Shown here one piece after another: positions 2,198-59,437 of a DNA stretch of 64,000 nucleotides. Positions within the stretch are counted from its first letter, which is position 1. Every line of letters starts with the position of its first letter. The stretch comes from Cinnamomum chago (Eukaryota > Streptophyta > Magnoliopsida > Laurales > Lauraceae): the NCBI GenBank assembly GCA_038049695.1, contig CP142457.1:61996501-62060500 (forward strand), in the 5' to 3' direction. The translations under genes and the position numbers were made by a program. The notes under the pieces are model-generated. The model was not told the origin of the DNA and did no database searches. It saw nothing but the letters and a program-made list of their open reading frames with translations.

Positions 2198-2231
<34 letters not shown>

Positions 2232-17272: not shown

Positions 17273-17625
17273 TCATATGCCATAAATAAATATATATATA
17301 TATATATATATTGAAAATATTCATATACTGTGAAAACCATTGGTGGGGCCATCTAAGCAACTCATACAAAACGTTCGTGATCCTCCAATAATCACTAATT
17401 CCAAGGTTTGAAACCCAATTCGATAGAGGGTTGATTTTATTTTATTTTAATATAAAATCATTAAACTTGTACATCACGTATGAAAGGCTTAACGGCACGA
17501 GATTTCATCAAGTGAAGTGATATCACAAAGATATTTCCATCACCAGGGCCCCTATCAATCCTATGAATACTACTCATACGCGTATGCTGTTTGCTCAACT
17601 GGAACTCAAGCATTAAGAGATAGCA
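12770..17625. other. Intergenic stretch without recognised genes
   Basis: AT-rich DNA with several 60-110 codon open frames, none with a recognisable domain. The frame at 15302-15523 is the longest with a protein-like composition, but it matches no family I know. Nothing else stands out until the foldback repeats near 16.9 kb. Confidence 0.5.
16876..17245. repeat. Cluster of GAGAGATAAGG-family foldback repeats, copies 2 and 3
   Basis: Two adjacent, partly overlapping units share the arms ctcaccttactatgagaaat / ctcataataaggtgagatc and the core aattaagttgttggcatt and gtgagggcctccacc. The second unit (about 17045-17245) is rearranged, with the core sequence repeated. (TA)n tracts follow at 17241-17265 and 17289-17311. 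Confidence 0.75.
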
Positions 17626-31511: not shown

Positions 31512-33227
31512 CTACATGGTCCCTTCCACTTTCACAGGTGTTTGATTCACATGAGTCTCAGTCCACCCAGCATCCACACTCCCATTCAAACCATCATCAA
31601 CGAAATCGCCCACACGCTTAACCTTCGATTCGGGCGGAGGAAGAACAGGATAATTCCCAGAGAAACAAGCATCACAAAAGCTAGGCGCTTCCTCCCCTAG
31701 GAATTCCCCCAAGCTCTCTAATGATAGGAATGCAAGCGAATCACACTGGATGAATTCGCGAACCTCTTCAACACTCATTCTATTGGAAATCAGCTCCTCA
31801 GAACTGGGAGTATCCACTCCATAGTAACAAGACCCAATGATTGGGGGGCTTGCAATTCTCATGTGGACTTCTTTAGCTCCTGCATCCTTGAGCAACCTTA
31901 CTATCTTCGACGAAGTCGTCCCTCTCACAATCGAGTCGTCGACCACGACGACTCGCTTGCCCTTCAGGACGGCCTGCACAGGGGCGAGCTTGAGCTTGAC
32001 CCCAAAGTCTCGAATTTTCTGTGATGGCTCGATGAAGGTGCGACCCACATAGTGGGATCGGATTAGACCCTGTTGGAAGGGGACTCCGGCCTTGGCGGCA
32101 TAGCCAAGGGCGGCGACGAAGCCGGAGTCTGGGACGGCAATGACAACGTCGCAATCTACCGGCGCCTTGGCGGCCAGAATCTGGCCGAAGGCATAGCGGG
32201 ACTCATAGACGGAGCGGCCGAAAACGGTCGAATTGGGGAGGGAGAAGTAGATGTGTTCGAACACGCAGGCCTTTCGAGGGCGGTGGGGGAGGAGGCAGAG
32301 GGAGCTAATTCCGGCGGCGTCGACGACCACGACCTCGCCGGGATTGACCTCACGCTCGTAGGTGGCCTCTATGAGGTCTAGGGCGCAGGTCTCGGAGGCG
32401 AAGACGACGGCGCCGTTGCTGCGGCGGCCCATGACTAGGGGGCGGAAGCCGAAGGGGTCACGGACGGCGACGAGCTTGTCCTCGGTGATGAAGACCATGG
32501 AGTAGGCGCCCTGGAGCTGCTCGCAGGCGCCGACGATGCGCTGGAGGAAAGGCCGGGCTTTGGAGATGGCGATGAGGTGGAGCACCACCTCCGTGTCGGA
32601 GCTGGTGTTGAAAATGGAGCCCTGGTCCTCCAGCGCATGCCGGAGATGACGGTAATTGACGAGATTCCCATTGTGGGCGACGCCGACTGACCCAAACCGG
32701 TACCCGGCGACGAACGGCTGGACGTTTTTCAGCATGGAGGAGCCGGCGGTGGAGTATCTGACATGGCCAATGGCGGAATTTCCAGGGAGCAGGTCGAGCT
32801 TGGACTGGGTGAATACATCGGAGACGAGGCCGACGCCGGTGACGGACTGGAGGATGTTCTTGTGGACAGAGACGATGCCGGCACCCTCCTGGCCGCGGTG
32901 CTGGAGGGCGTGGAGGGCGAGGTAGCAGAGACGGGAGGCTTCCGGGTCGCCGTAGATGCCGACGACGCCGCATTCCTCACGGGGCTTGTCTGATTCCTGG
33001 GATGTAGGGTCGTCGTCGCCGGGGAAGAAGGTGGAGATGGCGGTTTTGGAGGAGGAGTATAGTTTGAAAGAGAGAGAGGGAGGTTTTGAGGGGTTTAGAA
33101 GGGTTTTGGGAAATTTGGAAGGGGCTTTATGAAAAAAGTGGAGGGGGGATTTTTTGGTTGTGGATGGTGATGATGATGTTGATGATGATAAGGGGGAGGA
33201 GGAGGGAAAGAGATTGGATGTGGCCAT
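31512..33227 (-). CDS. ASE: Amidophosphoribosyltransferase (glutamine PRPP amidotransferase), plastidial, intronless
   Basis: A 571-aa single-exon frame. The enzyme makes 5-phosphoribosylamine from PRPP and glutamine, the first committed step of de novo purine synthesis, in plastids. Residues 1-84 are Ser/Pro/Lys-rich and fit a plastid transit peptide. The mature class II glutaminase domain begins with nucleophile Cys86 (EECGVVGIYG), followed by HRGQEGAG, HVRYST, AHNGNLVN and SSDTE. The C-terminal phosphoribosyltransferase domain has the PRPP loop VVVVDDSIVRGTTSS (about 426-440). Cysteines 321, 467, 518 and 521 (CVFEHIYF, GSCYYG, FCDAC) match the four ligands of the 4Fe-4S cluster in the Bacillus-type enzyme. 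Length and lack of introns match Arabidopsis ASE1-3; which of the three it corresponds to cannot be told. The frame is intact and GC-rich. Only one copy lies in the window. Confidence 0.97.
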   Translation of the reverse strand: MATSNLFPSSSPLSSSTSSSPSTTKKSPLHFFHKAPSKFPKTLLNPSKPPSLSFKLYSSSKTAISTFFPGDDDPTSQESDKPREECGVVGIYGDPEASRLCYLALHALQHRGQEGAGIVSVHKNILQSVTGVGLVSDVFTQSKLDLLPGNSAIGHVRYSTAGSSMLKNVQPFVAGYRFGSVGVAHNGNLVNYRHLRHALEDQGSIFNTSSDTEVVLHLIAISKARPFLQRIVGACEQLQGAYSMVFITEDKLVAVRDPFGFRPLVMGRRSNGAVVFASETCALDLIEATYEREVNPGEVVVVDAAGISSLCLLPHRPRKACVFEHIYFSLPNSTVFGRSVYESRYAFGQILAAKAPVDCDVVIAVPDSGFVAALGYAAKAGVPFQQGLIRSHYVGRTFIEPSQKIRDFGVKLKLAPVQAVLKGKRVVVVDDSIVRGTTSSKIVRLLKDAGAKEVHMRIASPPIIGSCYYGVDTPSSEELISNRMSVEEVREFIQCDSLAFLSLESLGEFLGEEAPSFCDACFSGNYPVLPPPESKVKRVGDFVDDGLNGSVDAGWTETHVNQTPVKVEGTM

Positions 33228-33442
33228 GGACTGAAATGAGAAAAAGGAAAACCAAAGGGGTGGTTGGGAGAGAAGAGAGGTTTGTGTTTGGACTTGGGAA
33301 GATGGAGAGATTTCTCTTCCCCTTTTAAGAAAAAAAAATCTGTCTAGTCTAGAATGTGGGAATCAAACAGAAGCTATGGTGACTTCCATCGTGTCAAGCT
33401 CAAGCGTCTCCTCCTTATCAGTGGAAGAGGACTCCGCAGGGC

Positions 33443-40299: not shown

Positions 40300-42089
40300 T
40301 GGCATGAGGGACATCAATTTGTGGGGTTTCACACAACCTCATAGGGATTGTTTTTGGGAGGAAAATATTCCCAAGTGGATTAAAAAAACAGGCTCAATTT
40401 TGTGCAGGGGAGCCTGTGGTTTTGTCTCTGGTCTTCTTTTCAATGAATTCTTTTTGTGTGACACCCAAGGAAAAAAAAAAAAAAAAAATCAACCTCAGAA
40501 AAAGGAGCCGCAATTTGGAATAGAGGAATAGCATTAATTATTGTGATTCCCACTGCCCTTTTCTTCTTGTTTTTATCTCCCAAGTGAGGCCGAGAATCTC
40601 GGACTCTCACCAAGAATTCCACATAAAATGGGAAGAGAGATACAGAACATAATATCTTATCTCCATGAGGTTGTGTGGTTAGGCTTTGTAGGACTATTAG
40701 TCTTGTTGCTTTAGATGGACCCAACATTGCGCATTGCAGGTGGAGCCCACGATGTTATCTATGACGGGTGATTCAATTATGGGCCATTAATCTTCTCTTG
40801 GCCCTTGGGCACGTTTGTGTATTGCTGCGGTAACCTGACCTTCCAGCGTAGACATTGGTTTTTTCATGTAAAACTCAATTAATTTTTCGCTTTTTCTTAT
40901 GACAAAGTACCCACACCAAATATGACTTTTTTATTGTAGCATGGAAAAGATATTTTAGCTTTCCATGTTTCTTCACATGAAAGGATATGTACGAACGTGC
41001 TTGTTTGTTTACATGGAAGAAAATTGAATTCCTAAAGATCCTTTGTAATTAGACTTGTATTAATCTTATTAAAAGTGGTTACATTTGATGAGAAAAAGGC
41101 ACCCCCAAATAATCTCCCTTTTATTGGAACAATGAATTAAGAGAAAACAGTAGATGACACCCAACTATCACCCAATCCAACAAATCCTAGGAAATGGAGG
41201 TTCGGTCTCCATTTCACTCTAATTTACCCATCACCCTTCATGTCTTTAAGAATACTTTGCTGCAACCCCTTTTAGAATTTCTTAAAATCCAACCCTTCGC
41301 GAACAACAAACTGGCCAATAATGAGATTAAATTTATTATTATTAAAAGGTGATATCTGTCATATCATATTTCTTTTTTATAATTCTTATATAATCTCTTC
41401 TTAGGTACTTTCTCCTATTAAATCCAAACAAAGTGAAGAAAATCAACCACACAAAAAGGTGGCGTTTCACCTCTAAACTTTTCCTCATTTGTTTATGCAG
41501 TGAGAATTCTACACTCTTTTATCATTTTCTCCTTACCCAAACAACATTCAGTAGGCACTAACCTAATGCCAGTACAAATGGTATATTTCAATCGATAATC
41601 CACACTCAACATGAAAGCTTTTACAACACGACAGGTACAGACGGATGGTTATGGTCAATGGGTTTGTTTTTGGGCAACCGCCCAAGTAGTAGGGTACCAT
41701 TACAAATTTCACCATCTCATACCATACATACGCATAGAGCCTCTTACATTATTATGAGAGATAAGTTTGGGCCCTCACATCTATATTCATGCCAACAACT
41801 TAAATGTGAGGGCCCCACCTTTATCTCTTATAAAATGGTAAGAGATGCTCTTATAGGAGCATATTCATATATATATATATATATATATTTATGAGTTGAT
41901 TTTGTGGGTCCTATTCTGCTGGGTTGACTCTTTTCATGCCATGTTTCAGGTGAGAAAACGAATAGACATATAAGCCTATGTGCCCAAGACATGGATCCTA
42001 CTAAAATACATAAACTAAAATAGATAGATAAAAATCTGAAACTACCAACAAGGGCAAACCAAGCAGCCTCCAGTGTTCTAATTATCAGG
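40300..42089. other. Flanking DNA of the degenerate PR-10 unit
   Basis: Holds the block at 41010-41230 (catggaag.aaattgaattcc, then taatctcccttttattggaa and tatcacccaatccaacaaat). Diverged copies lie at about 45450-45640 and 50434-50630. No gene. Confidence 0.6.
41722..41866. repeat. GAGAGATAAGG-family foldback MITE, copy 4
   Basis: Arms cattattatgagagataag and aaaatggtaagagatgctct flank the family core gccaacaacttaaatgtgag. An (AT)n tract follows at 41868-41890. Confidence 0.75.
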
Positions 42090-42842
42090 TGGACTAAACC
42101 AAGAGATGGATGTATACGTGTCTTTCTCTGAGATCTAGAGGTGGATTCAGTACAGGAGAAAGCTCATACTATTTTCTTTAACAATAAGCAAATCAAGAGA
42201 TTGATGAATTTACTCAGACCGTGTAACTAGAAATTAAAATCGTGGTGTGTGTAAACAAGTAATAAAAAAGAAATGTGCGTGCATATGGCAACTCTATTTC
42301 AACAAACTAGAGATTTCAGGCTTTACATTAAGCTACTGGTCTGTGAGGCTCTCGGACAGTTCTTCTTATATGATATGTCTCTCTCTTCTTTTTTGGCCGC
42401 CCTTCTAGGCATCAGCGTGCTTCTATTTATAAGCTTCTTTGCACGTGTCGCCCCTTTACTCTCCTTGCTTCCGTCCCTCTGCCTTTGTCAATAGACGGAA
42501 GCAGGAGCGGTGATGTATTTCCAATCTTCGCTATTACGGACCATTCTTTCTTTCAGGTCCTTTGTAGACCCGGGTCCGACTATGGTCCTTACCACTTTTG
42601 TCTTGCCTAGAGACTGTCCAAGATGAGTGATCATAATTGCAATTATCATATTACTACGAACCTACTAGGAGAGAGTGACAGAAAGGATAGTGCCAACATG
42701 ACCTCCATCGCCTTCAGCTTGTATATCTTGGAAGAAGTTGGGGAGCAGTTTGGCAAGTAGCTTGGCCACTCGAAGCCTGCCATACGTTTCCCACGGCTGC
42801 CGGCACTCCAGCTTCCAACTTTCTTGTTCTTGTTGGAGATAA
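42090..42842 (-). pseudogene. Degenerate Bet v 1/PR-10 gene (array unit D)
   Basis: Minus strand. Exon 1 remains at about 42671-42842 but is frameshifted: KLEAGVPAAV reads in one frame and WETYGRLRVAKLLAKLLPNF in another, then DGGHVGTILSVTLS. There is no usable ATG at the expected MKGQ position. Exon 2 is reduced to about 42110-42175, equivalent to the LEKDSDSS-FLLYR region, then jumps directly to sequence that in unit A lies inside the intron (aatcaagagattgatgaat). Most of exon 2, the C-terminal helix and the splice junction are gone. Its place at the left end of the array and its damage mark it as a dead duplicate. Confidence 0.8.
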
Positions 42843-42960
42843 TTAAAATAAAGGGATTGTGGTGGAAATTGGGATACTTTCTAGGCTAGTTCTGAATAGC
42901 TCTTGTATATAAAAGGGCTCGTTCTAATTGCACCCACCCTATTTGCTATTTAAACCCACC

Positions 42961-43662
42961 CTAACTTCTAGGGTGGATGGGATGGGATGGGATGGGATGG
43001 GATGGATTGACTGGGGTGAAATGGAGTTTGTGTAGATCACCGATTTCAGTGACCTGGATGCACTCTCGCAGATATCCGGCGGCGATCATCCGCCCGGTGA
43101 TGCTGCGGAGGTCGCAGATCGCATCAGACGGCACCAGATCGACCTCACCGATGCTGGTCGTCGACGATCGACGGCTGCAGCTGCTCCTCCGACCGATTTC
43201 CAGCTCCTGGAACCTTCTCGGATCTTCCTCATCTTGATAACTGTTGTCTTCCTCATAGACGACGAATTCGCCGGATCTGCTGCTGGAGGAGATGGAAAGC
43301 GAGTTCAGGTGGTCGGAAATCGCGTCTGCCCCAACCGGACTACTATGCGTCATGAGTATGTGGCGGAATTCGTCTTCCAGACGAGCCATGGCAATCTGGA
43401 TCGCGCCGCTCGGATCGGAATCGGCGGAGACAGAGCGCCGGATTTCATCGACAGCGCGTAAGTACCGGTCCACCTCCCGGTGGTCCCCGTCAAAGATCAT
43501 GCGTTCTCTGGCCTCCTCCGACGCCGTCGAGTCCCACCGCATGATTAGCTTGTGTGCCGCCTCGATTCCGCCGGCCAGATCGTTGGATTCCTCCCGTTCT
43601 ATCGCCTGCGATCGGTTCTCGGCCAGATATTTTGAGTTTTTAGCGGTGTTTAATAGTCTTTT
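42961..43662 (-). pseudogene. EXO70: Truncated EXO70 exocyst-subunit fragment
   Basis: Minus strand, GC-rich frame. EXO70 proteins help tether secretory vesicles at the plasma membrane and are usually about 600-700 aa. Visible here is only the N-terminal part: SKYLAENRSQAIEREESNDL, GIEAAHKLIMRW, DSTASEEARERMIFDGDHRE, VDRYLRAVDEI, AIQIAMARLEDEFRHIL, DLRSITGRMIAAGYLRECIQV. Homology stops at ECIQV, where the next residues of the family (start of the large C-terminal Exo70 domain) are missing. The frame instead runs through PSHPIPSHPIHP, encoded by the GGATG pentanucleotide repeat, to a stop at 42961. Upstream, 40 codons of family-like sequence lie between an in-frame TAA (43663-43665) and the internal ATG at 43542, with no earlier ATG. 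Both ends are therefore broken. It lies between PR-10 units D and A and is probably a captured or inserted fragment. A 193-aa product from the internal Met is possible, but function as EXO70 is unlikely. Confidence 0.87.
42973..43012 (+). repeat. (GGATG)n pentanucleotide repeat at the EXO70 breakpoint
   Basis: About five units of gatgg/gatgggatggg lie where EXO70 homology ends. They encode the terminal PSHPI repeats of the truncated frame. Confidence 0.85.
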
Positions 43663-44538
43663 TTATTGATGTGGTCTTGTAAGGCAGCTGCTGCTGCTCT
43701 TCTTCTCTCTCTGTCTCGGCTGCGACGGTTTGTCTGCATATGTAGGTGGGGAGAGAGAGACGTTCATCGCTTTGGTGGAATTGGTCTCGACGGAGGAGAG
43801 GTGTTTGACTTTGACAAAGGTGTGGTGGAGTTGGACTCTGTGCAGGATGTGATAGAAGCATGACAAGACCAAGTTAAATGGGTGTGACGTGGTGGGAGTC
43901 ACTTTAAATGAGTGTGAGTGTCATGAAACTCTTAGGGCCGTACACCCACCCTTTATATAGGGTGGGTGTATATATCAACACCCATCAATCAATCTTAGGT
44001 GCTATGTGAACCGGTACATCTGGCGAAAGCCTATGTGAATGTAGAGTGGGTGCAGATAGCAACCCCCATATAAAAGTTATAGGGTATCTGATCTTTTTTG
44101 ACATTTTTGTGCTGGCCTGCCGCGGATATTGATTCCGATAAATTCTGAATAGGGTCCTTTCCGGCCCTCAACAAACCTCGTATGTCACTTGGCTGCTCAG
44201 GAATTAACAAGTATGCCATTCTTTGCATGTGTGTGGACTATCTTTCCACTCTGTGGACTTCTTCTTACCCGTTGTGTCAGGTATCTTGGAGCTGAAGCCA
44301 CTTGTGTCAGGTATTTTGGGGCTGAAGCCACTGGTGTACCAAAAACAACTCAAAATGGCTTCCTTCCCACTTTGTTAGCTTTCATTTGGTAATTTCTTTA
44401 TTTAATTTTCTATGGTATATCTATGTTATACCATTGCTTTTATCCTATACCTATATCATCTTCCTCTCTAATATATCTTAACATTACTGATTAAAAAAAA
44501 AAAAGCTGGGATGATTATAAAAGATAGGAAATAAGAGA

Positions 44539-44720
44539 TGTTGGAAAAGTCATGTTCGAAAAGTCTTACATCCCACGTCGTCCAAGTAATGGATTTGACA
44601 CGCCTTCACATACCTATTTGGACATTCCACCTATCAGCTAAAGCTCTCGGATTGATATATGATATCTTATGTGGTATCAAAGATAGTTCTTGTCATTCTT
44701 ATATAGCCCACTGAACTACA
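44539..44720 (+). mobile_element. Possible TRIM / LTR fragment
   Basis: It starts TGTTGGAAAAGTC, contains agtcttacatcccacgtcg (a motif common in terminal-repeat retrotransposons in miniature) and ends next to tggtatcaaagata, which resembles the initiator-Met tRNA primer-binding site. A second LTR and a duplication were not found. Confidence 0.35.
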
Positions 44721-45994
44721 TTTTTTCTTATTAGCGACGGTTGGGTTGGGTTAATCTGAAAGGATTTCATCAATCCGATGGCAGAAATTCCTGATATAAG
44801 GAGCTGTTCCCTCAGGTAGTCGGCGGGCTGGGCCCCAGCTTGAGGAGATTTTTTTAATAGTCCAGCTCAGTAAGACACTCTAGTCCACATATTGTATTTT
44901 CCCCATTTCATAGAAATTCTAACCGGAGAGTGTTCTCAGAGATATAGTTGCATTCCCCCCGTTGATACAAGTTTTGTCCCGTGGGCATCCACAAAACTAT
45001 AGGGAGCAGAGAAAACAGAGAAATAAAAAGCTCCTTATAAATTAGCATTGGACAAAATCAGCATAATAAGATTATTTTAATTTACAGAGCTTCAGATTTC
45101 AAAACATTCATTTGATTTACACTTTTCTTGTTGTGCAATCGATTGGTTATTTTCATTTTTCCATTGCGTGCCTTCCTGCTTGTCAAATGATGCATCTAAG
45201 TGAGCCTAACTTATGCAAGTTAGATTATTTTTTATTTTTCCACCTTGCACAGGGAATGACATTCGGCTGTTTGGAATTAAAATCTGATAAAATTACTTTC
45301 TCATCAGAGAGAAAAAAATCGAAGAAACAAAAATGAAAATCCACAAATAATCGATTGTCAAAAAATTCTCTCTTGGAAAATGGCTAACCATGTATCATCA
45401 TAGTAAATCAAATCTTAGGAAAGTCAACTCCATCTCTCAAGGTCCAATGTTTGCATGGAAGGGAAATGAATTCTTAGGGTTGTTTGTAAGACTTATATTC
45501 TTATTAAGAGATCCATGAATGACATTCAAATAATCCCCCTTTCATTGTAAAAGTTAATTAAGAGAAGATAGTAGATAAATGCTCAAGCAGCCCAACTATC
45601 ACCCAATACATCAAATCCTAAGAAGGCCGGGTTTCATCTCCATATCACCCCGTATCCTTTACCTCTCATGTCTTTGAGTATACTTTGATGCAACTCATTT
45701 TGGAATTCATTAGAATTCAATCCTCTGCAAACAAACATAATAATAATGGGATTAAATTTTGCATTACTAGCTAGAAAGTGACGTTAGTCAAATAATATTT
45801 TTTCCCCATAATTTCTAAATAATTTCTCCTCAGCAGCTTTCTCTAATATAAAGTCCAAACATAGTGGAAAAAAGCAACACCACAAAAAGTGGTATATAAT
45901 CCACCTCTAAAAGTTCTCTAATTTGTTATTATATTAAGAATTCTCCATTTTGTCATTTTCTCATCCAAAAAATGAACCAGAGGGTATATGCAAG

Positions 45995-46303
45995 TTCTGG
46001 GCCTGTTTATTTACAGGAGTTTATGACTAGGATTTGGGAGGTTGAGTTTTTTTGGACATGATATGACATCTTGTCCCTTGGCATTTGAGATGCTACGTTT
46101 CTTTTATTAGAATTTTAAATTCCAACCACTCAAAATGCCTTTTAGAATTCTTGGAATTCCACTCTATATATCATTTTTTGGAATTTCAAATCATCCATAA
46201 AAAAGAGGAATTTGAAATTCCACCTAAGAAAACAATTTTTAGAGAAATTGAAATACTCCCAAATATGAATGATTGGAATTTTGATAAATAAACGGGCCCA
46301 GAA
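45995..46303. mobile_element. Foldback MITE, 309 bp
   Basis: The left end TTCTGGGCCTGTTTATTTA and the right end, reverse-complemented TTCTGGGCCCGTTTATTTA, form an inverted repeat of about 19 bp with one mismatch. The target-site duplication is unclear, so superfamily is left open (PIF/Harbinger-like ends). Confidence 0.65.
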
Positions 46304-46762
46304 TTATCATAGTTGTCCATTCCAGTTTATTTCCGTCCCAATGACCAGAGCTTTCCGTTTTGGTCCTTCAACAGAAACGAAATGGGGCTCCAAGCTTTTC
46401 AGTTTGAATTCCGCTCCATTTCAGTTAGGTCCGATCCATTTTGGCTATCCATTTCTGCATAAAGAGTAGGGTCCATTATAGATGTGATCACCATCTCAAA
46501 CCATATATGAGTTGATTTTGTGGGTCCTACTGTTCTGGCCATGTGCCCTTTTTATGTGCACATGTATGTCTAGATAATACTTAAATAAAATAGATAAAAT
46601 CATAAAAAAATATGAAACTTCCAATTAAGGCAAAAGCAACCGGGCTCGCACCCTTTCCATTATTTATGCGAACCAAACACAACCGCAATAATGACAGTAA
46701 TAATAGTCAACACTGAATAATGCTAGAACCCCAAAATGGGTTTAATTTTCCTCTCAAGAGTC

Positions 46763-47782
46763 TCAAGAGTTGAGCTTGGCTTTGTACTCTTCAGCGAGAT
46801 GGTTTCCTATGACTTCAGCAATGGCCACTAGCGAATCAGTAGAGACGAGAGAGACATTGGCAGCAGACTCTTCTGCGAGCTCATACTCAATGGTGGATTG
46901 AATAATGGACGAATCGCTGTCTTTCTCTAAGACCTGGAGGCGGACTCGGTACAGGAGAAAACCAAGATCCAGGAAACCACCTTCCACGACTTCAGTCTCC
47001 TTCAAACGATTCTCATGTTCGATTTTGGTGAACTTCTCTTTATAAACAGCAAATGCAGGCGCACCTAGTAATCCACAACTGACCACTTTTTTAGTATTGT
47101 ATTTTTCTCCTTTCTAATATAAAATAACAATGATCAAATCAAGAGATTGATGAATGGTCTGGCTATTGTTGGATACGCAATCCAGACCGTCAAGATTAAT
47201 TATTTAAATAGGAGCAGACCTACGGAAACAGATCCCCTATTTCGTCCCAACAGGGGAGCCCTGTTTGGACGAATCAGGAGTCGCCACATGCGGGGGCGGA
47301 AGGGGGCAGAGGAAAGAGAGAAGCAAGTTCTATTCCTCCCCTCCTTCCGCCCCCGTGCGCCCCCCGATTCGTCCAAACAGGGCTCTTTGTTTGGACGAAA
47401 CAGGAATCCTGATCCCAGACCCGCATATATGATTTTGTAGACAGTCACCTCGTTAGTAAAAACAAAAGCCGAGAAAATCCATATGAAAATTCTAGATCCG
47501 CCTCCAAAATTAATATGAAATTCTTTGGTCCACCTCCAAAACCCCGAATACCTCCTGGATTCCACTCTATATTGGATGAGTATGAAGTACAAACATACCA
47601 GGAGCGAAGGTGAGGGAAAGGACAGTGCCAACGCCTCCATCCCCTTCAGCTTGTACGTCTTGGAAGATGTTGGGGAGCAGCTTGACGACTAGCTTTCCCA
47701 ATTGAAGCGTTCCATACGTTTCCCACACCACAGCTGCAGGCGCGCCTACTTCCAACTCGTGTGAGACCTGCCCCTTCATCAT
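46763..47782 (-). CDS. Bet v 1 / PR-10 family protein, norcoclaurine-synthase-like (array unit A), intact
   Basis: Minus strand, exons 47782-47599 and 47064-46763, phase 1 intron with GT-AG ends, giving 162 codons (161 aa). The Bet v 1 fold binds hydrophobic ligands; the family includes PR-10 allergens and (S)-norcoclaurine synthases of benzylisoquinoline alkaloid synthesis. Visible are MMKGQVSHELEVGAPAAVVW at the start, WETYGTLQLGKLVVKLLPN, the glycine loop GDGGVGT, then VYKEKFTKI, VVEGGFLDLGFLLYRVRL, SIIQSTIEYELAEESA and a C-terminal helix AIAEVIGNHLAEEY. Two Met codons are adjacent; the second (47779) matches the MKGQ start of unit C. Start wording and the FLLYR-R block resemble proteins usually labelled norcoclaurine synthase-like, but I cannot confirm catalytic residues, so the substrate is unknown. 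A TATTAAAAG string 75 nt upstream (about 47855) matches the spacing of the TATA box in unit C. A foldback lies in the intron. Confidence 0.9.
47240..47410. repeat. Foldback insertion inside the unit A intron
   Basis: GAGCCCTGTTTGGACGAATC (about 47248) is repeated inverted at about 47369 (GATTCGTCCAAACAGGGCTC), with GC-rich inner arms (gcgggggcggaaggggg / ccttccgcccccgtgcg). The introns of units B and C lack it, so it arrived after duplication. Confidence 0.8.
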
Positions 47783-49070
47783 CTTCTTCTTCTTCTTCTT
47801 CTTCTTTTTCTTCTTGTTGTTGGAGATGAGCTCATGGTATCTAGGTTGGTTCTTTTAATAGGTCTTGGAATGCGACCCTTATTGGACATTTCTATGCTGG
47901 CCTACCGCGAATATTGTACATTTCAACATGGAAAGATTCCGATGAGATATCCACAGTGGGTCTTTTCTTTTCTAGTGTCCAACGACTCATACTGGCCTCG
48001 TATTCACTCGGTTGAGTTGACTATGTTGGAGGTCATTTACCTGAACGAGTAATCTGAGTATCCACTCACCAAAGTTAACTGAACTCGATGTTCCTTCTGG
48101 TCCTTCTTGTCATTTACTCACCTCCATGTTCCTTTGGGTCGTTCTTGGCTGGGTTTGATTCTCTTTTCGTGTTTGAAACTTTAATGGCTAAATCCATTAG
48201 ATTATGGGATGGCGACCTCCCAACACTCCTAACAAGAAGGGTGAGTTCCATCGTTGTAAATCATGTTGTGGGGCTCACTTTTGAAATTAAAATGCTTTAA
48301 GGTCGACATTGTTCAACAAGCCGGCCGGGAAAAGTTTACTAATTGAAGTTTTATATACCGTTAAATTGACCGTGTTTAAAATACATGATTAGAAGAAGAA
48401 AAATCTTGAATCATGTGTTTCATAAATAATCAATCCAGCGTTGTGCATAATTTTATTGGGCTAAATTTTCTTTGATAGTAAATCTATTTTAAAAAACTCC
48501 TATTCCTCTATGCTCAATTAAAGTACGGCCCATTGAAAAATCTAAATTACTCAAAAGAAGTGTTTTGTTTTATTAGTGATCAATTTGGTGATGGTAATTA
48601 CTATTAGAGTAAATAGGGGCATTTATTTTGAGATTACTTTTCAAAAATTTAAACCACTCAAAATAAACGCCCTTCTTCTTGGAGAGAAATTCACATATAT
48701 TATTAGTGATAAATCTGGAAAAACCAATTCTTAAGAGGATTAATGTTGGGCAATTTAGAATATTTTCACTAAATGGGTCAATTCAATTAAAGACTGAATA
48801 TTCATCTACAAAGGAAATGAGGGTAAGAAGAAGGGAGAATAGAGAAGATCAGTATTAACAATGCCCCGCTTCCATCTTACATCTGATTTACGTTCTTAAT
48901 GCTCCTCTTTGTGGCATGGGCTACAATGGTTTCCTTTCATTCTTTGCTGGGATGGGATCAAGCCAATTCAAAAGGAGGGGGTCAAATCATGTGAGAATAC
49001 ATGCGAGGAAAGTAAGAAACATATGAGTATTTGAAGGCAAAGAATCCTTAGGGGGAGTAGTTGCATCAAG

Positions 49071-49594
49071 TAGGGCTGCACAGAACCGGACCGCAAAACC
49101 GGACCGGATTTGTGGTCTTAGACCACAAATCCGGACCGGACCGGACCGGATTTGTGGTCTTAGACCACAAATCCGGACCGGACCGGACCGGACCGGATTT
49201 GAAAAACCGGTTATATCCGGTCCGGTCCGGTCCGGACCTTTTAAAAACCGGTCTGGACCGGACCGGACCGGATTAATAATAAAGATTTTTTTTTTAATTT
49301 TTTTAATATAAAACTTTAAGTATATAAAATTTCTAAGTCAAATATCATAGTGAAAATGAAAATATAAAATAAAATAAGAATTTCTAAGTCATATTTTTCT
49401 TCTTTCACTTGCATAATGGGCTGAAAATGAAAAAAAAAAATAAGAACTTAGAAAAAAAAAAAAACTAATGAAACCAGTCCGGACCACTTAAGTGGTCCAG
49501 ACCGGACCGTTTTGGACCGGTCCGGTCCTCTCATTTAAGCCGGACCGGAAATCCGGTCCAAAAACCGGACCGGATTTCCAGTTGTGCAGCCCTA
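49071..49594. mobile_element. hAT-type non-autonomous element with CCGGA pentamer arrays, 524 bp
   Basis: A perfect 12-bp TIR TAGGGCTGCACA at both ends and the 8-bp duplication GCATCAAG (49063-49070 and 49595-49602) define a hAT element. Both halves are built of tandem ggacc/ccgga pentamers, with the palindrome gtggtcttagaccac twice near the left end. The middle is A/T-rich. No transposase frame is present. Confidence 0.93.
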
Positions 49595-51144
49595 GCATCA
49601 AGGACTAATAATCGCTTATTGATTGGAGACTTCAAGCTATATCATAGGATTGCAATCACTTCATGGGGGAAATGTTTCTTTATTAGAATTCATGGAATTC
49701 ATGTCTAGAGGCTGTTTGGAATTTCAAATGTTAAAGAATTTTGAAATGCTACTAAATTATGTGATTTGAAAATTCTCCGTTTCATTCCTACATGAGTTCT
49801 TGCCTAAGAATTTTTAAATTCCTGAATTCTATAAACTCCTAGTTTCATTGCTACATAAATTCTTGACTGGAATTACACATTTTATGCATTGTAGCACATG
49901 GGACCCACCTTTGTTGTTGTGAATTTGGGACTAGATGGTAAGAATTACAATGTGGGCCCACCTCAAGTATATGGTACATGAGCCCATTTTTTAGATACAA
50001 AAGCATGCAATCCAAGTTTAAAATCTGAATATGGTCCCATCTAAACAGGAATTGCATGGCCCCAATTGTTGCAATTGAAAATATGAGGCTCTCTTTTTTA
50101 TAGGTAAGATCAGCCTCCTTTAATGGGTACTAGAATTCCAACCAAACCTCTCGGAGTTCCAGAATTCTGAAATGCGCTCTTAGAAGGGCTAGCATTTTGA
50201 AATTTCACATTTTGGGCATTTAAAAATTATGACTACCTTGAAAACTGAAAATCCCAATAAAAGAACACTGAATTTCTTATAGGAATTCTTGATTCCACAG
50301 GCAGCCAAAATTCCTATCAGAAATGCTTGTAAAGAAATAAGCCCTTAATGATTGAGGACTTCAAGATATATCCTTGAAATTGTAATCACTTATTGATTGA
50401 GGACTTCAAGCTATATGCTAGGATTGTAATCACTTATTGTTTGCATGGAAAGGAGTTGAACCCCTAAGGTTGTAAGAATTGTATTATTCAAAGTGGTTAA
50501 AATTGACAAAACATATATAGTTTAAGATCCATAAATGATCTTCAAATAATCTCCTTCTTAAAGGAGAGACGGAAAATTAATATCCAATTCTATCACCCAG
50601 TAAATCAAATCCTAGGAAAAGATGGGTCTCTAATGTCTAAATTTGCCCCTCATCTCTTCAATAATACTTTGTCGCAACCCATTCTAGAATTCCTTGGAAT
50701 TCAGTCATTTGCAAAGAAACAAGCCCCTAATGAAATTAGTTTATGTGTTACTTTGAAAGTTATATTTATCATTTAATTCTTTTTTCAGGAATTTTAAGTA
50801 GTTCTCCTTAACTTGACTTAAATCAATTCAAGTCCAAACATCAGTGGAGAAAAGCAACCATACAAAATTGGGACTTCACCTCTACATTTTTCCTCATTTG
50901 TCTATCCTGCCAAAAGTTCTCTAATTTCTCATTTTCTCCTGCTCGAAAACGACCCCGACTGGGCCTTGGCGTTGTTTACTTATCTGCTAGTGGTTCATTA
51001 CAATAGATGATCCACATGCACCATGAGAACTCACCATCTTGATAGATACAGATGGATGGTGATGAAATTGGTTTTTAAGTCCACTGCCCAACCACCATCA
51101 CGGATGTCTCTATCTCATTCTCATACCATACATGAGTTAGATTT

Positions 51145-51502
51145 AGGGTTGTAAACGGGTTGATTCAAGTCCGGGTCCATGGTGTGCCCAGAACCAGAGC
51201 CGTAAAGAAGAAGGTGGAACCAGTTTCTTGGCTTCGGAATCGGAACCAGAACCATATATGCGATAGGTCTAGATCTGGGTCCGAGTCTAAGCAGAAAATG
51301 ATATTAAAAAAACATGGTTTTTAAGAGAAATTTTCGAAAATTGAGGTAATATGTCGGGTCTCGGGTCCACGGGTCCGAACTAAGGTGGAACCGGACTTGG
51401 ACCCATTTACATATTGGAGCCTAAACAAGGACCCATACCCGATTTTTAACGGGTCGGAACCTCCGGGTAATCGGAGAATCGGGGACCCATTTACATCCCT
51501 AC
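51145..51502. mobile_element. hAT-like MITE in the unit B downstream flank, 8-bp TSD
   Basis: TTAGATTT flanks it at 51137-51144 and 51503-51510. Ends are AGGGTTGTAAACGGGT and, reverse-complemented, GTAGGGATGTAAATGGGT. The matching place in units A (46508, gagttgattttgtgggtcct) and D (about 41891) is uninterrupted, which shows the empty site. A related copy lies inverted at 39054. Confidence 0.8.
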
Positions 51503-51808
51503 TTAGATTTTTGTGATTACTCATCGGTAGGACCCTTTTTTTTATATATGCTATGTTCAAGGTCACGGAAAATACATAAGAGCATACCTAAGCAATATAT
51601 AAACCTGTGTGCACATGTATGGTCTGTACGTATCATAAGAAAACTCCCACATTTTTAATTATCAACTACACTAATCACAAATAAGAAGAATAAGGTAATG
51701 ATAATTAATACACAACCCTTAGTAATCCAAGAATTGAATTCCAAAGCAGAGTGCAGGGCATCAATTACAAATTACAAGGATCCCAATGGGTTGATTTTTT
51801 TTGTCTTT

Positions 51809-52936
51809 TTAAGCTTTGAGCTTGGCTTTGTACTCCTCTGTGAGACGCTTTCCGACGACTTCAGCAATGATTGGTAGCGAATTAATAGAAGAGTAATGCT
51901 ACTTGGACAAACTTTTTGGCCAGAATTTTGGCCAACCCATATGGTTTCCATTGAATATCACTATGATATTCAATGGAAACCATATGGGTTGGCCAAAATT
52001 CTGGCCAAAAAGTTTGTCCAAGTAGACTTTTTGTTAATAGAAACGAGAGAGGTGTAGATAACAAATTCTTCTGCTAGCTCATACTCGATGGTGGATCGGA
52101 TGATGGACGAATCGTTGTCTTTTTCTAAGATCTCGAAGCGGCCTCGGTATAGGAGAAAACCCACATCCAGATACTCACCTTCCACCAATTCTACTTCCCT
52201 CACACGATTCTCTTTGTCGATCTTGGTGATCTTTGATTTGTAAACCTTGAATCCAGGAGTATCTAATAATAACCATTCTCATTAGTGTATTTTTGTCTTT
52301 AAATAGATCAAATCAAGAGATTGATGAGAACTAATTAAGGGGCTGTTCGGTTGGTTGGGAATCCCACTTTAGTATTCACGGATCGAACTCTAGGTATCCC
52401 ACACGGATTCGAGTCTGGATCCTCCCTTACAGTAATTACATAGGAACAATGTAATATATGTCACTTTCAATTTAATTGGAGTGAGTTCTACTATAAGAGT
52501 GAACGTAACTGCGAATGTGACATTAATTACATTTATGTCGTGTTTTCAATGAGATGATGGGATTCACTCCGATTGAGTTGAAATTTAAGGATATAACCCT
52601 GGGATGATCTTTAATGGGTCCTAGCCCCCTTAGTTGGGTTAAAAAAAGTCCAAAAGAGATTGTTGGATATGCGATCTAGATTCTAGACCATTCGAGGTGA
52701 GATCACCATCATAATTATCAGAAGATGACCAATAACTTACCGGGATGGAACCAGTTGAGAGAAATGAGAGTGCCAACACCTCCATTGCCTTCCATGACTT
52801 GTAAATCTCGGACTACGTTGGGGAGCAATTGGACAATTAGCTTGTCCAATTGAAGCGTGCCATAAGTTTCCCATACCACAGCTGCAGGCACGCTTACCTC
52901 CAACTCGTGTGAGAGCTGCCCCTTAATGATCTTCAT
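51809..52936 (-). pseudogene. Bet v 1 / PR-10 gene (array unit B) interrupted by a MITE
   Basis: Minus strand, exon 1 52936-52741, exon 2 from 52262. The start is MKIIKGQLSHELEVSVPAAV, followed by WETYGTLQLDKLIVQLLPN, GNGGVGT, then TPGFKVYKSKITKI, YLDVGFLLYRGRFEILEK and SIIRSTIEYELAEE. After SLVSIN the frame enters a 143-bp hairpin element (51891-52033) and stops at 51970-51972. Beyond it the old C-terminal helix (SLPIIAEVVGKRLTEEY) runs to the original stop at 51809-51811. Taking away the element and one 9-bp duplication leaves 302 nt of exon 2, the same as in unit A, so the gene was open before insertion (165 aa). As it stands it would give 162 aa with about 20 residues of transposon-encoded tail in place of the C-terminal helix that lines the Bet v 1 pocket. 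Function is probably lost, but a folded product is not excluded. Confidence 0.88.
51891..52033. mobile_element. Mutator-type foldback MITE, 143 bp, inserted in PR-10 exon 2
   Basis: Nearly perfect arms (ctacttggacaaactttttg on the left and its complement on the right) meet at atcactatgatattc, making a full-length hairpin. TTAATAGAA is duplicated at 51882-51890 and 52034-52042. The 9-bp duplication suggests the Mutator superfamily; ends begin GAGTAATGCT, comparable to GAGGAATGCT of the element at 24656. High arm identity points to a young insertion. Confidence 0.93.
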
Positions 52937-53349
52937 CTTCTTCTTGTTTTTCTTCTCGTTGGAGATGAACTAGAAGGTCCTCTAATGGAAAACTTATTTT
53001 CGGAGATTTCTGTGCTGGCCAGGCCTGTAGCCAGGGAAGATTTCGATGAGTTTAAAGACAGTAATTTATGAGTGCTAAAAAGCTCATAATTGACCGAGCC
53101 TTGCCCTTACTCGGTTGAGTCAACTTGATTGCTAGTCACACCTCGGTGAGGTTAGGACAGCCTCGGGTGTACGAAGGATAAGAGAGGCCATTCTCGATTG
53201 CTAGTCACCCTTTGATTGGGCATTGATTCTCTATTCTCGTTTGAGACTTTTGTTGCTAAATCCTTTTAAGCATCAGATGATTGTGAAAAATGGGCCACAA
53301 CACAGCCGACTTCCCAACAATGGGAAACAAGAGTAGTCGTCCTCAGTGT

Positions 53350-55545
53350 TGGTTAATTCATAGGTTAGATAAGATTTTGGGTTGATTGAGTTGTATTTTC
53401 TTTTTGATGGACCGGCTATCGTATGCATGAAGTGGAGAATCATAAAAAAGCAATGGCGAAGTGCATTATCCAATCGATCAGATATAGGGCAGATCGATCG
53501 GATATCGGAGACTTCTCACTTAACAGAGGTTACTGTTGACATGTGAATTTTCAATTACTAATTTCCTAATCTTTTTAAGGTAAAATGCTCATTTTCCATT
53601 GACTGCTGGGAAGGATCGGCTAATACATTGAAACTTGATTGCTGACTGTTAAGATAATGGAAAACCCACCGCCGGTGACCCTTGGATACAGTACAGCAGT
53701 CAATGATTACACACCCTCAACAGCTGCTATGAACTCTACAATAGCCGTCATATGTGTGCTCTTAACAACCAATCAGCATACCAACTGCTGAATGCTCTTC
53801 GAAGACGTCAGTCGTTGAACGCTATTCAAAGGCACTAGCTGCTAGACACTCTTCAATGGCCGCAACCACATCCCTTAAGTAGCCGACTGACCGCTAACAA
53901 CACCTGAATAGCCATTGGGCGCAATTCATGCACTTTAATAGCCATTGGGCATTGTGAAGTTATTCTAACAACCAATAAGCGATTAGCACCCATGATCTCC
54001 TCCATTGATCAAGCTTGATGGCCATAGGTCATGCAGAAATGGCAGTTATACCCCATTTACTCCACTTCCTAAAACTACTCCCCCCACGATCTCCAGCAGT
54101 TACAAATGGCTATAGGGGGGTTGAAAGCAACTTTCTGCACACACGGAAGGCATTCACGCAAAAAGTGTAAAAATCATATTGTGCTCTTGCCAGAAGACTC
54201 AACCTAATTCCTTTTGCAAGATAATGGTTAGTCAACAGTGATTTGAAGCCTCAGAACCTTTCTTTGTTCTCTTCACACAAGGAGGAAATAACAGTGATGT
54301 CCATACAAACATCATTCAAGACCATCCTTTCAATAAGTGGTGATAGATTACAAAGATTGATAAATGAGACTATATTCAAGGACGAATATGTTCTATGAAG
54401 ACAACAACTCTCTTCTATCTTTCTCTCTCTTTAAATGTTGTATTTTACACTTTCTTTTACATTCGATCTCCTAAGCCCCACAATGGGGTTGTATAAAATT
54501 TGTTAACAACGTGCACTCAAAAGGTAATACAAATAAAACCCATGTAAAAATAAAAGCAAATATGACTTTTCAATACACAGTCAAACATACGTGCAAGTTA
54601 CTTTTATGTCTTCCTGTAATTCATTGAAATTAAATAAAATCAATTCTATACTTGTTTTTGTTCAATTTTCAGCGAAACAGTTACTCGATCGATAGGATGG
54701 TTGGCCCGATTGATCGGATGGCAGCTCATTGTTTTGCGTTGGGAGATCTAATTGAGAGAATTCTTCTCTAGAGATTCAGTTCAATGATTGTACTGCAGAG
54801 TTGATCTAGAGAGCAGTATCTTTTATATCCCTTGTAGAAGATCATATTCTTTCGTAGAAGATCTGAGAAGTCAAGCCGGTTTGAATCTGTTGCAATTAAC
54901 GGTGTGAAAGTCATTGATGTGTGGAGCTACACAAGAGGTAACTGCAGTCTTTAGGTAGTAATTATCTAGGGAGGGATGTGTGAGTGTCTTATAATTGCGA
55001 GATTCATAATGCTTAATTGTTGATTCAATTTGGATCTGTGGTTTTTTACCCAATTTGGATTTTCCACATTATATCTAGTGTACTTGTGGTGTGTGCTTTT
55101 GCTATTTATTTTCGCAGCATATTATCTTATTTTTTGCACACATTGGGCTGTTGAGTTGTCCAATCTAGAGATCAATCCAAAAACCTTCAATTGTTATAAA
55201 AGTCTTTTGTGGGCTTTCTTTTGGAATCATAACCAGTCTGATCAAGGTCATTGCTCCACCTTGTATCACCTATGAAAATTCTTCCTAGATAAACCTTGAG
55301 AGGTTAGTTGATGCAGCATAAATACTATTTAATACTTCTCTTGGGTGGAGCCCACTCCTCAACACTTTCCCTTGGGTGGAATCCGGTGGGTGCACCTCAT
55401 TCGTAAATAGAACTCTCCCTCAGGTGGAACCCAATTGGCACATTTTTTAGGGTACATATTTTTTTTTTCACGCTGAGCCGTTCTTCTTAAGATTCGAACT
55501 TGCATGACGTTAGTAGGAGAAGTATAAATATTTTTCGATAATAAA
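53350..55545 (+). mobile_element. Probable LTR-retrotransposon-derived insertion
   Basis: The end at about 55020-55130 reads ggatctgtggttttttaccc, then ggattttccacattatatct and ttgctatttattttcgcagc, a wording typical of the 3' part of Copia LTRs. Repeats of cgatcgat and gatcggat occur at both 53.46 and 54.69 kb. Boundaries come only from the break in array similarity and no duplication was found. Confidence 0.4.
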
Positions 55546-56629
55546 TAATGTTAAATTGATTATGTATAAAGCATATAATTAGAAGAAGGAAAAGTAAATC
55601 ACTTTCTTTGTATAAATAATCAATATAATACTGTGCATAATCTTATTAAGTTAAATTTTATTTGATGGTGAAATAAAGTGAGGCTAATTTGAACAGTTTA
55701 AATTTCAATAATGTGTCTTACTAGCTAATGGATCTATATTGTGGGCTTATAAATTATAATATATCTGTGGCTGTCCCAGTAGTTGTCTTCATGTCAGTGG
55801 ACCTGTCCATTTTTTTAAAAGAAGGGTGATGGTTCCTAGACTAAGAAGAAGCAACTGAGACAACACTTGTCCCACTGCCACTGGTTGGGTTAATCTTTCA
55901 AAAGTCTTATCTTTCATGACTCAGAATCCTCTATGATATTCACGCCCTTTATTAGCTATTAATTTGTTGATTTCAATTCCAATTAAAGTGAATAGGAGGG
56001 TTTATTTTGGGTCCACTTGTTCAAGATCCAGACTATTAAACATAAATGCTACTTTTCTTTGAGTGAAATGCACATATTCCATATAAATCTGGGGTGTTCT
56101 GTCCTTTTAAACAATAAAATACTAATATTTATTTTAAACAGTTTAAATTTTTCATTAAATCAACAAGAAAATTGAATGTCCCTAACCAGGCTAGCAGTAG
56201 CTGGGCCAAATCCCCTAATTGGTGGGGGTGTCTTATTGCTCGGAGTGGATTTGGGTGCAAATAAAAAAAATTAGTAATTGACTGTCACTAAAGAAGCAAT
56301 AGTGAAAGTGTATTACCCTTCAATGATGCTCCTAATAATGGAATCTAACTGGAACCCATTTTAGCCACTCTATTCATTTTCTATAAGATTAGACAAACAA
56401 GTGTGGGTTACTTCGTATTACCCATTAATGACAGTTCTGCACTCATTGGAAACTTGCATTATTGCTGTTCTATTGTGTTTGACGTTGCAACCACTCACAA
56501 AAGCAGAGTCCAGGGCATCAATTATTGTCTTACAAGGATCCAAATGGACCTTAGGAACTCTAATGACAGAGAAATTATTTCTAATTTCTATTGGAACTTC
56601 TTTTACAACAGGAAGGAAGGTAGGAAGGA

Positions 56630-56631
<2 letters not shown>

Positions 56632-56695
<64 letters not shown>

Positions 56696-56712
56696 TAGAG
56701 AGAGAGAGAGAT
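56632..56712 (+). repeat. (GA)n microsatellite
   Basis: About 80 bp of GAGAGA with a few ATA interruptions, starting after ggaaggaaggtaggaaggaagg, just downstream of PR-10 unit C (40 bp past its stop codon). Confidence 0.95.
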
Positions 56713-56751
56713 TCTTTTTTCTCTAAAATCCCAAAAATAAGTTGAATCTCT

Positions 56752-57600
56752 TCAAGCGTAGTTGACCTTAGCTTTATACTCCTCAGCAATGTGCTTTCCA
56801 ACAATTTCAGCAATGATCGCAAGCATATCAGTAGTGATAAGAGATGCATAGGCAGCAGACTCTTCTGCTATCTCATACTCTACAGTGGATCTGATAATGG
56901 ATGAATCGCCATCTCTCTCTAAGATCTCGAGGCGGACTCGGTACAGGAGAAAACCCATGTCCAGGAATCCACCTTCCACCATTTCCACCTCCTTCACATG
57001 CTTCTCATCATCCACCTTGGTGAACTTCTCTTTGTAACCACTGAATCCAGCCACATCTATTCACCAATCCTCATTCATTAGTACATAGATATGGTTTTTT
57101 TTTTTACATATAATAACAACAGTAAAAATGAGATTTTTATGAACAAAAACTGTCCCCACAGACGGAATAAATTAGTAAGGCAGAAAGGAAATGTGGCAAA
57201 GGGAAAAGAGGGCTTAAGCTCATGAGTCATGAAATTGTTTGTGGCTCAAGGGTATGACTAGAAAAAAAAAAAAAAAAAAGGAAAAGTGAGTCAAGCAACT
57301 CTTGTGACATTTTGGGATATTTTATCATTCCACTGAAGAATTTAATGGATAAATGGTCTTATATGCAAACGAACTGTCTGAGATCATCACCATCATGATC
57401 AGATGAATTAACTTACTGGAAGCGAGGGTGATAGCAAGGACAGTGCCAACGCCCCCATCACCTTCTAAGACTTGTATGTTTTGGACCAAGTTGGGCAGCA
57501 GTTTGGCGACTTGCTTGGACATTTCAAGCGTGCCATAAGTCTCCCACACCACCCCTGCAGGCACGTCTGTCTCCGACTCGTGTGAGAGCTGTCCTTTCAT
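56752..57600 (-). CDS. Bet v 1 / PR-10 family protein, norcoclaurine-synthase-like (array unit C), intact
   Basis: Minus strand, exons 57600-57417 and 57056-56752, phase 1 GT-AG intron (gtaagt donor), 163 codons (162 aa). Same fold and motifs as unit A: MKGQLSHESETDVPAGVVW, YGTLEMSKQVAKLLPN, LEGDGGVGT (glycine loop), AGFSGYKEKFTKVDD, MVEGGFLDMGFLLYRVRL, SIIRSTVEYEIAEESAAYAS and the helix AIIAEIVGKHIAEEY. Compared with A it has one extra residue before the glycine loop, a longer C-terminus (NYA), and an acidic stretch ESETDVP where A has ELEVGAP. That last change removes a usually hydrophobic strand residue and may signal divergence in ligand binding. The frame, splice sites and TATA box are intact, so the gene is probably expressed. 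It is the rightmost member of the array; no further unit is seen to 64 kb. The substrate is unknown. Confidence 0.9.
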
Positions 57601-57676
57601 CTTCTTCTTCCTCCTTTGATGCCTTGTCTTCTTGTTCTTGTTGTTGTTGATGAATCAAAGGCCTTGTAGCAGGAAA

Positions 57677-57683
57677 TTTTATA
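57677..57683 (-). promoter_or_regulatory. Candidate TATA box of PR-10 unit C
   Basis: TATAAAA on the minus strand, 77 nt upstream of the ATG. Unit A has TATTAAAA at almost the same distance (75 nt); in unit B the place reads cgaaaataagtt, so the box appears degraded there. Confidence 0.45.
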
Positions 57684-59437
57684 AGCATCTTGTATGTAAG
57701 AATTTCTGTATGAGGGGAAGTGACGTTTATGACCTTCTTGGACATTTCTGTTCTGGACTGCCAACGAATATTGTGTATTTCTATTCTGAAAGATTTCGAT
57801 GAGATTGGGTTGACTCAGCTTCACCAGATGGCCGTTAAATCGAGTCCCTTGGGTTGAGTCAGCTTCACTAGTAATTAGACTCACCATTGTTGCTCAACTC
57901 CATTATAAAATCGAGTCCCTTGTGTTTAATTGCTGGGCTTTGATCAACTTTTCTGGTTTGAGAGAGTTTTATGGCTAAATCTATGCGTCATTATAGGTGA
58001 TTCTAGGCATAGGATGAGATAGACTTCACCACCACCACCACCACGACAATAATAATAATAATAATAAGGATCTTGAGCTGCTAAAGTTGCATTGGAATAT
58101 TGCTCTCAACAACTTTAACACAAGTAGCCAGGGTTGCAAATGGGTATTTGAATATCTGAACGTTCGAAGGCCCCAATTATAAATAAAGTGGGGATGGATC
58201 TATTTTTGGATCTGGATAAATTTGGATCTTTGGATCTGGATCGATATCCATACATATAGGGTCCAAAGCACTTGGAACTGAATCCTTATATGTTTCGACT
58301 GGATGGTCTACATTAAAAATGATTACACTCACATGTTAAAAATATGTATTGTGGTTTAAAGAGACAAAATGGCTTGAGTTATTTTCATATTTGAGAATAT
58401 GCACTAAGTGGCTGCACTTTTGGAGCTCTATGAATTTTGCCACAAGCCATGAAATTTGGAAGGAGAAAGGATGATATTGCTCCAGCAGTAGATGATTAAA
58501 AAATAATTAATAGATGGACATTAACGGCGTGTTAATTTGCACAGATTTATAATCTGAAATTTCAATGTGTTGAAAATTCTGATAGCAATGTCAGGTTGTG
58601 TAAATGAAATTCTTTGTTTTGTTAGTCGAATTTCAGAAGTCCAATCTTTTGAGATGTCAGTTTTACCTTCTTAAATTTTCCAACAGCATCTTGGAGGTTA
58701 AGTGGATCTGAGGATTCCAAAAAAAAAAACCGATGAAAACTTTTGGAGAATTTCTAATTTTTTTCAATTTTAATTAGAAACTTTCTACATTCCAGCAAAC
58801 AAACATGCAAGCAGCAAGGAACTATGAGATTGAAAAATAATAGATAAGACTCAGGCTTGTTGCTTTCCTGGATCTGCAAATGCCAATGAACCGAACTGGG
58901 AATGGGTCAGGCCAGCTGTTCCATGTGCGCCCCCCACCCCTTGGAATGTGCAACCAGTCAACTATATATGATGAAAATAAAGGACTATGTAAGGTTCAAC
59001 TGGCTCTATTTAGGGATGTTCAAGGGCCAGGTCGGGCAGGGCTGAGGCAAATCCAGGCCTGGCCGTGTCTGGTTTAAGCCTGGACCCATTTAATCAATCA
59101 GGCCAAGCTGAACCGAGACTCTTATCTTTTGCTGTATTCTTCTTGACAAGGCCATCTTATGCAATTGGTTTGGAAATCACTGAATGTTTTGCTCTGCATT
59201 GATGTACTTCTCAGCCGTCTTAAGTGACACATTCCAATTATATATGTTAAATTTCCCATCCGGGGTACTCATGGCAGGGTGGCAAATCATGACCTGACCC
59301 ACCACTCGACCCAATCTAACCCCATAATTCAAGGTCGAGTTTACACCTTTTGTTTTCACCTTTGGTTTAGTTGGTTGAAATTGTGTCTACTCTAATTAGG
59401 ACGCTGCAACCAGACCTATCCGACTAATTGCTGCTAT

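Follow-up and report, generated by a model that had tools for sequence, protein, structure and literature searches.

The 64,000-nucleotide stretch of the Cinnamomum chago genome analysed here (the window; contig CP142457.1, positions 61,996,501 to 62,060,500) carries a tandem array of four norcoclaurine synthase (NCS)-like Bet v 1 genes, units A to D, all on the minus strand. Our sequence comparisons point to a long-standing tandem array of NCS II-type Bet v 1 genes in Lauraceae, in which B and D are complete and A and C are broken; B and D are the only intact NCS-family genes that we found, within the limits of the searches. We see an even chance that B and/or D condense dopamine and 4-hydroxyphenylacetaldehyde to norcoclaurine and would thereby feed the benzylisoquinoline alkaloids of laurels.

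Layout and age of the array

Self-comparison of the region from 38 to 60 kb places the gene bodies at 42.1-42.8 kb (A), 46.8-47.8 kb (B), 51.8-52.9 kb (C) and 56.8-57.6 kb (D) of the window, and exon alignments give a spacing of 4.8-4.9 kb between A and B, 5.0-5.2 kb between B and C, and 4.7-4.8 kb between C and D. Parallel diagonals link all four units, confirming the original prediction of a four-unit, minus-strand tandem array. In a sensitive unit-by-unit comparison the gene bodies align in all six unit pairs, and reversing one unit leaves no match in any of the six. The 3' flanks align in A-B (41006-41544 with 45448-45972, 69% identity), A-C (41005-41731 with 50437-51131, 64% identity) and B-C, and the downstream blocks predicted at 41010, 45450 and 50434 are thus where they were expected; no 3' flank of unit D matched at E<=1e-3. 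The 5' flanks align in B-C, B-D and C-D, and briefly in A-B (39 bp) and A-D (67 columns). No 5'-flank alignment between A and C, which had also been predicted, was found at E<=1e-3. The segmental tandem duplication proposed earlier is borne out by units that align in gene bodies and flanks, and the four units arose through repeated duplication of about 5 kb. A fifth unit was found neither in the window nor in 60 kb outside it (40 kb to the right and 20 kb to the left). Two collinear blocks upstream of B (48352-48718) recur downstream of D (55542-56092) at 70-74%, and are explained by a dispersed repeat or by the remains of a unit since lost. The features of the array are listed below by window position.

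41006-41544, unstranded: 3'-flank block of unit A; it matches 45448-45972 and a portion of 50437-51131
42105-42167, minus: gene A exon 2 remnant, from 56-62-column alignments to B, C and D
42655-42838, minus: gene A exon 1 remnant, without ATG and with in-frame stops, aligned to the B, C and D exons
42916-44067, minus: Pack-MULE-like insert of 1152 bp between A exon 1 and the A 5' flank, from Pfam and repeats
45448-45972, unstranded: 3'-flank block of unit B, from the unit-by-unit alignment
46763-47064, minus: gene B exon 2, an open frame with acceptor AG and a phase that fits exon 1, ending in TGA
47236-47404, unstranded: inverted repeat in the B intron resembling a miniature inverted-repeat transposable element (MITE), from a self-complementary match with inverted-repeat arms
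47599-47782, minus: gene B exon 1, from ATG to donor GT, by splicing (Pfam Bet_v_1 1.1e-10 over the spliced protein)
50437-51131, unstranded: 3'-flank block of unit C, from the unit-by-unit alignment
51809-52262, minus: gene C exon 2, MITE-interrupted; the frame enters the insert and stops, and the C-terminal part resumes beyond it
51891-52033, unstranded: palindromic MITE of 143 bp in C exon 2, arms 51899-51960 and 51964-52025
52741-52936, minus: gene C exon 1, open, by splicing
56752-57056, minus: gene D exon 2, by splicing, recovered again by the own-genome search
57417-57600, minus: gene D exon 1, by splicing (spliced protein 162 aa)

The family to which these genes belong was examined in a tree of 56 rows, made up of 51 of the 227 fetched proteins, the window genes B, C and D, and two outgroups from the same genome. 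B, C and D stand with the NCS set apart from two of the PR-10 and MLP proteins encoded in the same genome (98/95, starred; these two long-branched rows form the outgroup). The closest solved structures by sequence are also NCSs: 8ho2 matches B at E 5e-35 and D at E 6e-31. Lotus and Thalictrum NCSs rank first, cytokinin- and phytohormone-binding proteins next, and PR-10 allergens after these. Both results uphold the NCS-like identity originally proposed, and argue that B, C and D are NCS-like proteins and not PR-10 allergens. The genes pair with three separate avocado genes, D with MRB53_019335 (P0001; 100/100, starred), C with MRB53_019336 (P0006; 100/99, starred), and B with AAC387_Pa06g0202 (P0004) plus Cinnamomum P0003 (100/99, starred), and the duplications are therefore older than the split from avocado. 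A recent, species-specific expansion of the array, in line with the diversification first suggested for it, is ruled out, since a tree in which B, C and D had to form a clade without their orthologs was rejected with p-AU 1.5e-53.

The division of the family into NCS I and NCS II comes from PMC4870700 and was extended in PMC12072525. B, C and D, joined by Magnolia and Asimina proteins (95/94, starred), are not part of the NCS I clade, which holds the enzymes of Ranunculales and lotus (14 rows; 100/99, starred); a tree constrained to place the seven Lauraceae rows within that clade was modestly rejected (p-AU 0.038). A 33-row group, unstarred at 85/94, unites B, C and D with lotus P0021 and with eudicot and magnoliid homologs, which puts the array genes, as expected of NCS II, on the side of NnNCS4 and the eudicot homologs and apart from NCS I. 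The seven monocot rows lie outside this group, one of them (Dioscorea) next to NCS I (94/83), which makes NCS II a grade rather than a clade here. The placement of Aristolochia genes is in conflict in the literature: seven genes of A. fimbriata are assigned to NCS I in PMC8445822, but none of 15 A. contorta genes in PMC12072525.

Two complete and two broken genes

B (161 aa) and D (162 aa) are complete two-exon genes. Their introns, like that of C, are of the GT-AG type (534 bp in B, 478 bp in C and 360 bp in D) and follow codon 61 in B and D and codon 65 in C with identical phase, in agreement with the two exons and single conserved-position intron of Bet v 1 genes. Pfam PF00407 (Bet_v_1) matches B with 42.0 bits over residues 1-153 of 161 and D with 42.1 bits over residues 3-133 of 162, the cut-off being 22.4. 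The nearest proteins to the array genes come from Persea and Cinnamomum; B is 94% identical to avocado P0004 and 96% to Cinnamomum P0003, and D is 93% identical to avocado P0001.

This distribution of intact and damaged copies differs from the original prediction, in which A and C were intact and hence the candidates of interest, B was hit by a MITE and D had collapsed. The insertion in B is real, but it sits within the intron (47065-47598), so that the reading frame is undisturbed; D is complete, and A and C are precisely the two broken units. What is left of A is a part of exon 1 that lacks the ATG, in which the own-genome search reports two TAG codons, and 56-62 bp of exon 2. Pack-MULEs are marked by terminal inverted repeats, a 9-bp target duplication and a captured gene piece. 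The insert beside A has all of these, namely inverted repeats at 42924-42941 and 44042-44059, a 9-bp direct repeat (CTTTTATAT) at 42907-42915 and 44068-44076, and a frame of 233 codons (42961-43662) with a Pfam Exo70_N match of 2.4e-12, a fragment from the N-terminus of an EXO70 gene. Its arms begin 8 bases inside the direct repeats, and the A 5' flank picks up again beyond it at 44084-44149.

In C, the MITE lies inside exon 2. Its arms of 62 nt each are 100% complementary, and it is bounded by a 9-bp direct repeat (TTCTATTAA) at 51882-51890 and 52034-52042. The frame runs into the insert after C residue 141, at about residue 139 of the avocado ortholog, whose predicted structure has its C-terminal helix at residues 140-162, and this helix is therefore lost in C. 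The avocado ortholog, in contrast, is full-length.

Catalytic residues and candidate function

In TfNCS numbering, with residue roles taken from PMC6257185, positions 108, 110, 122 and 141 are Tyr, Glu, Lys and Val in both B and D, Tyr, Ser, Arg and Gly in C, and Tyr, Thr, Arg and Val in the avocado ortholog of C. The pair expected of a functional NCS, Glu110 and Lys122, is thus present in B and D and missing from C. In TfNCS itself, E110Q, E110D and K122L abolish activity, whereas D141N keeps 10% and D141E 50% of it (PMC4413047). Of 209 rows (B, C and D together with 206 fetched proteins 140-220 aa long), 203 retain Glu110 and 199 Lys122; six, C and its avocado ortholog among them, have lost both. 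Most likely, catalysis was lost in the C lineage ahead of the MITE insertion, the most direct sign being the Arg shared by C and the avocado ortholog; the Ser of C and the Thr of the ortholog at position 110 could represent separate losses.

The standing of B and D as sole intact members depends on searches of a 1.06-Gb assembly of 14 contigs that may be incomplete. With D as query, seven matches were obtained, every one an exon of the array. D alone would hardly detect a distant NCS. The lotus NCS P0146, one residue off from the compared part of PDB 8ho2, gave 16 matches at E<=1, six of which are B, C and D exons (E 6e-16 to 1e-7), recovered at 39-44% identity as a control of the query. The others are L048 at E 0.036 and nine weaker matches at loci typed as PR-10 or MLP. 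L048 (C8:22791077; frame L048:1477-1860) scores best with PR-10 and is distant from NCS; it is presumably a phytohormone-binding Bet v 1 of the CSBP type. No further NCS-type gene was found in the assembly with these two queries, TfNCS and a confirmed NCS III not being among them. A Pfam Bet_v_1 search of the genome returned 37 exon matches, 36 of them outside the window, and detected one of the seven array exons seen with D, which is why the claim of a lone array rests on the D and lotus searches. A hidden NCS among the 36 was looked for with 12 queries and rejected: 35 match best with the genome's own PR-10 or MLP (47-100% identity, except L035 at 33% and L036 at 28%), and the last, L032, matches MLP best at 28%. 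Because the PR-10 and MLP queries are from the same genome, this query set is tilted towards them. In a protein-database search with an NCS I profile, no named protein among the best 120 of 201 matches belonged to Persea or Cinnamomum, a few of the 120 being unnamed. Several other PR-10 and MLP clusters occur in the genome (L022-L027 and L037-L041, on contigs C1, C3, C4, C7 and C9).

If B and/or D make norcoclaurine, the protein would fold into a Bet v 1 barrel whose pocket takes the amine and the aldehyde, the equivalents of Lys122 and Glu110 would drive the NCS-type condensation of the two, and the norcoclaurine formed would enter the laurel alkaloids; the C lineage, with both residues gone, would have turned into a non-catalytic binder that was later broken in C. 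chago. Laurels of the genus Ocotea contain many benzylisoquinoline and aporphine alkaloids (PMC13316992), and the alkaloid pathway, NCS included, has been annotated in four laurel genomes (PMC10030967). In the open-access literature, judged mostly from listings, we met no characterised laurel NCS. In another magnoliid, Aristolochia, both of the two clade NCS II proteins tested were active in vitro, and one lotus member is cited as active (PMC12072525). A broader version of this proposal, which we hold as possible but rather doubtful, has B and/or D as the committed Lauraceae NCS, recruited from a universal NCS II stock independently of NCS I, so that entry into benzylisoquinoline alkaloids would have been reached at least twice from one protein family; the C paralog would be a former member whose catalytic pair disappeared before the divergence from avocado.

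Several observations weigh against norcoclaurine formation by B and D. Neither belongs to NCS I, which is the alkaloid-linked clade, and PMC4870700 detected NCS II genes in every species it tested, among them plants in which benzylisoquinoline alkaloids are reportedly absent. Such plants also conserve Glu110 and Lys122, so that having these residues is no pointer to alkaloids. The Asp141 of a functional NCS is replaced by Val in B and D; it is not strictly required, because lotus P0146 likewise has Val and the norbelladine synthase NpNBS has Ile at this position (PMC6286614). A Pfam scan of 11 further frames in the window (of 117) found no domain of another alkaloid-pathway enzyme. The paralogs are under mild constraint at best, with dN/dS ratios of 0.42 (B-C), 0.43 (B-D) and 0.50 (C-D) by NG86, and of 0.69, 0.67 and 0.87 by YN00, the latter indicating weak constraint. 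Positive selection was not seen between B, C and D in these whole-gene ratios. The two methods disagree on dS as well (0.47 by NG86 vs 0.34 by YN00 for B-D).

Quite possibly, though we give it less than even weight, B and D are instead general NCS II binders of small ligands (hormones, flavonoids, phenolics) or stress proteins, outside alkaloid synthesis. The occurrence of NCS II in plants without these alkaloids fits such a role, as do the legume, grass and other proteins that fill the homolog list of D, the shared fold of cytokinin- and gibberellin-binding proteins, and the expression of the lotus NCS II gene NnNCS4, which does not track alkaloid content (PMC4870700). However, the near-universal retention of Glu110 and Lys122 suits a kept reaction better, if not one tied to alkaloids, the two magnoliid NCS II proteins tested were active, and the D and lotus searches found no alternative gene for making norcoclaurine in the assembly. 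It is improbable that the reaction of B and D is a related condensation of an amine with an aldehyde, of the norbelladine synthase type or with other aldehydes, in place of norcoclaurine formation. Many database matches are named 'norbelladine synthase-like', and NpNBS much resembles B and D in keeping Tyr, Glu (shifted by one position) and Lys and lacking Asp141 (PMC6286614); those names, however, are transferred through similarity, and in the tree B and D are not placed with Crinum NBS1. Nor do we know of norbelladine alkaloids from laurels, which counts against this role. That A and C are intact, newly diversifying enzymes is barely conceivable: the tandem array and its flanks are real, but both genes are broken, C has neither essential residue, and the paralogs predate the avocado split, so that the sequence already refutes this reading short of assembly errors at both loci.

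With norcoclaurine synthesis by B and/or D retained as the leading proposal, the candidate list for the alkaloid entry step in laurels would shrink to these two genes if the array is alone in the genome. Their function also bears on whether the pathway requires the alkaloid-specific NCS I clade in the first place, and the avocado C ortholog, full-length and without the catalytic pair, offers a natural control that separates binding from catalysis.

Related systems and neighbouring genes

The adjacent locus numbers of MRB53_019335 and MRB53_019336 suggest that D and C are probably neighbours in avocado too. In sacred lotus, NnNCS1, 2, 4, 5 and 6 lie within 83 kb, a tandem NCS-family cluster that likewise has two-exon genes and two pseudogenes (PMC4870700). 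The lotus NCS II protein NnNCS4, which we take to be P0021 from its 155-aa length, is 58% identical to D. Lotus also has NCS I genes, whereas none was found in the C. chago assembly. Aristolochia contorta, another magnoliid, resembles C. chago in its clustered genes, 10 of 15 of which have one intron, and in the clade NCS II members AcNCS3-7, and differs in its ten clade NCS III genes and seven two-domain genes (PMC12072525); neither of the latter kinds was found in C. chago, where no confirmed NCS III query was used. Thalictrum flavum NCS (P0115; PDB 2vne, 2vq5 and 5n8q) shares with B and D the Bet v 1 family and equivalents of Tyr108, Glu110 and Lys122, but it is 36% identical to D, has Asp141 where they have Val, and carries an N-terminal stretch absent from both.

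To the left of the array, a long single-exon frame on the minus strand (31512-33362) has Pfam amidotransferase and phosphoribosyltransferase domains and is probably an amidophosphoribosyltransferase. Other Pfam matches in the window are to ordinary plant genes: PAP/fibrillin exons (1052-5991), a protein kinase frame (17617-18612) and an HSF DNA-binding exon (23963-24268).

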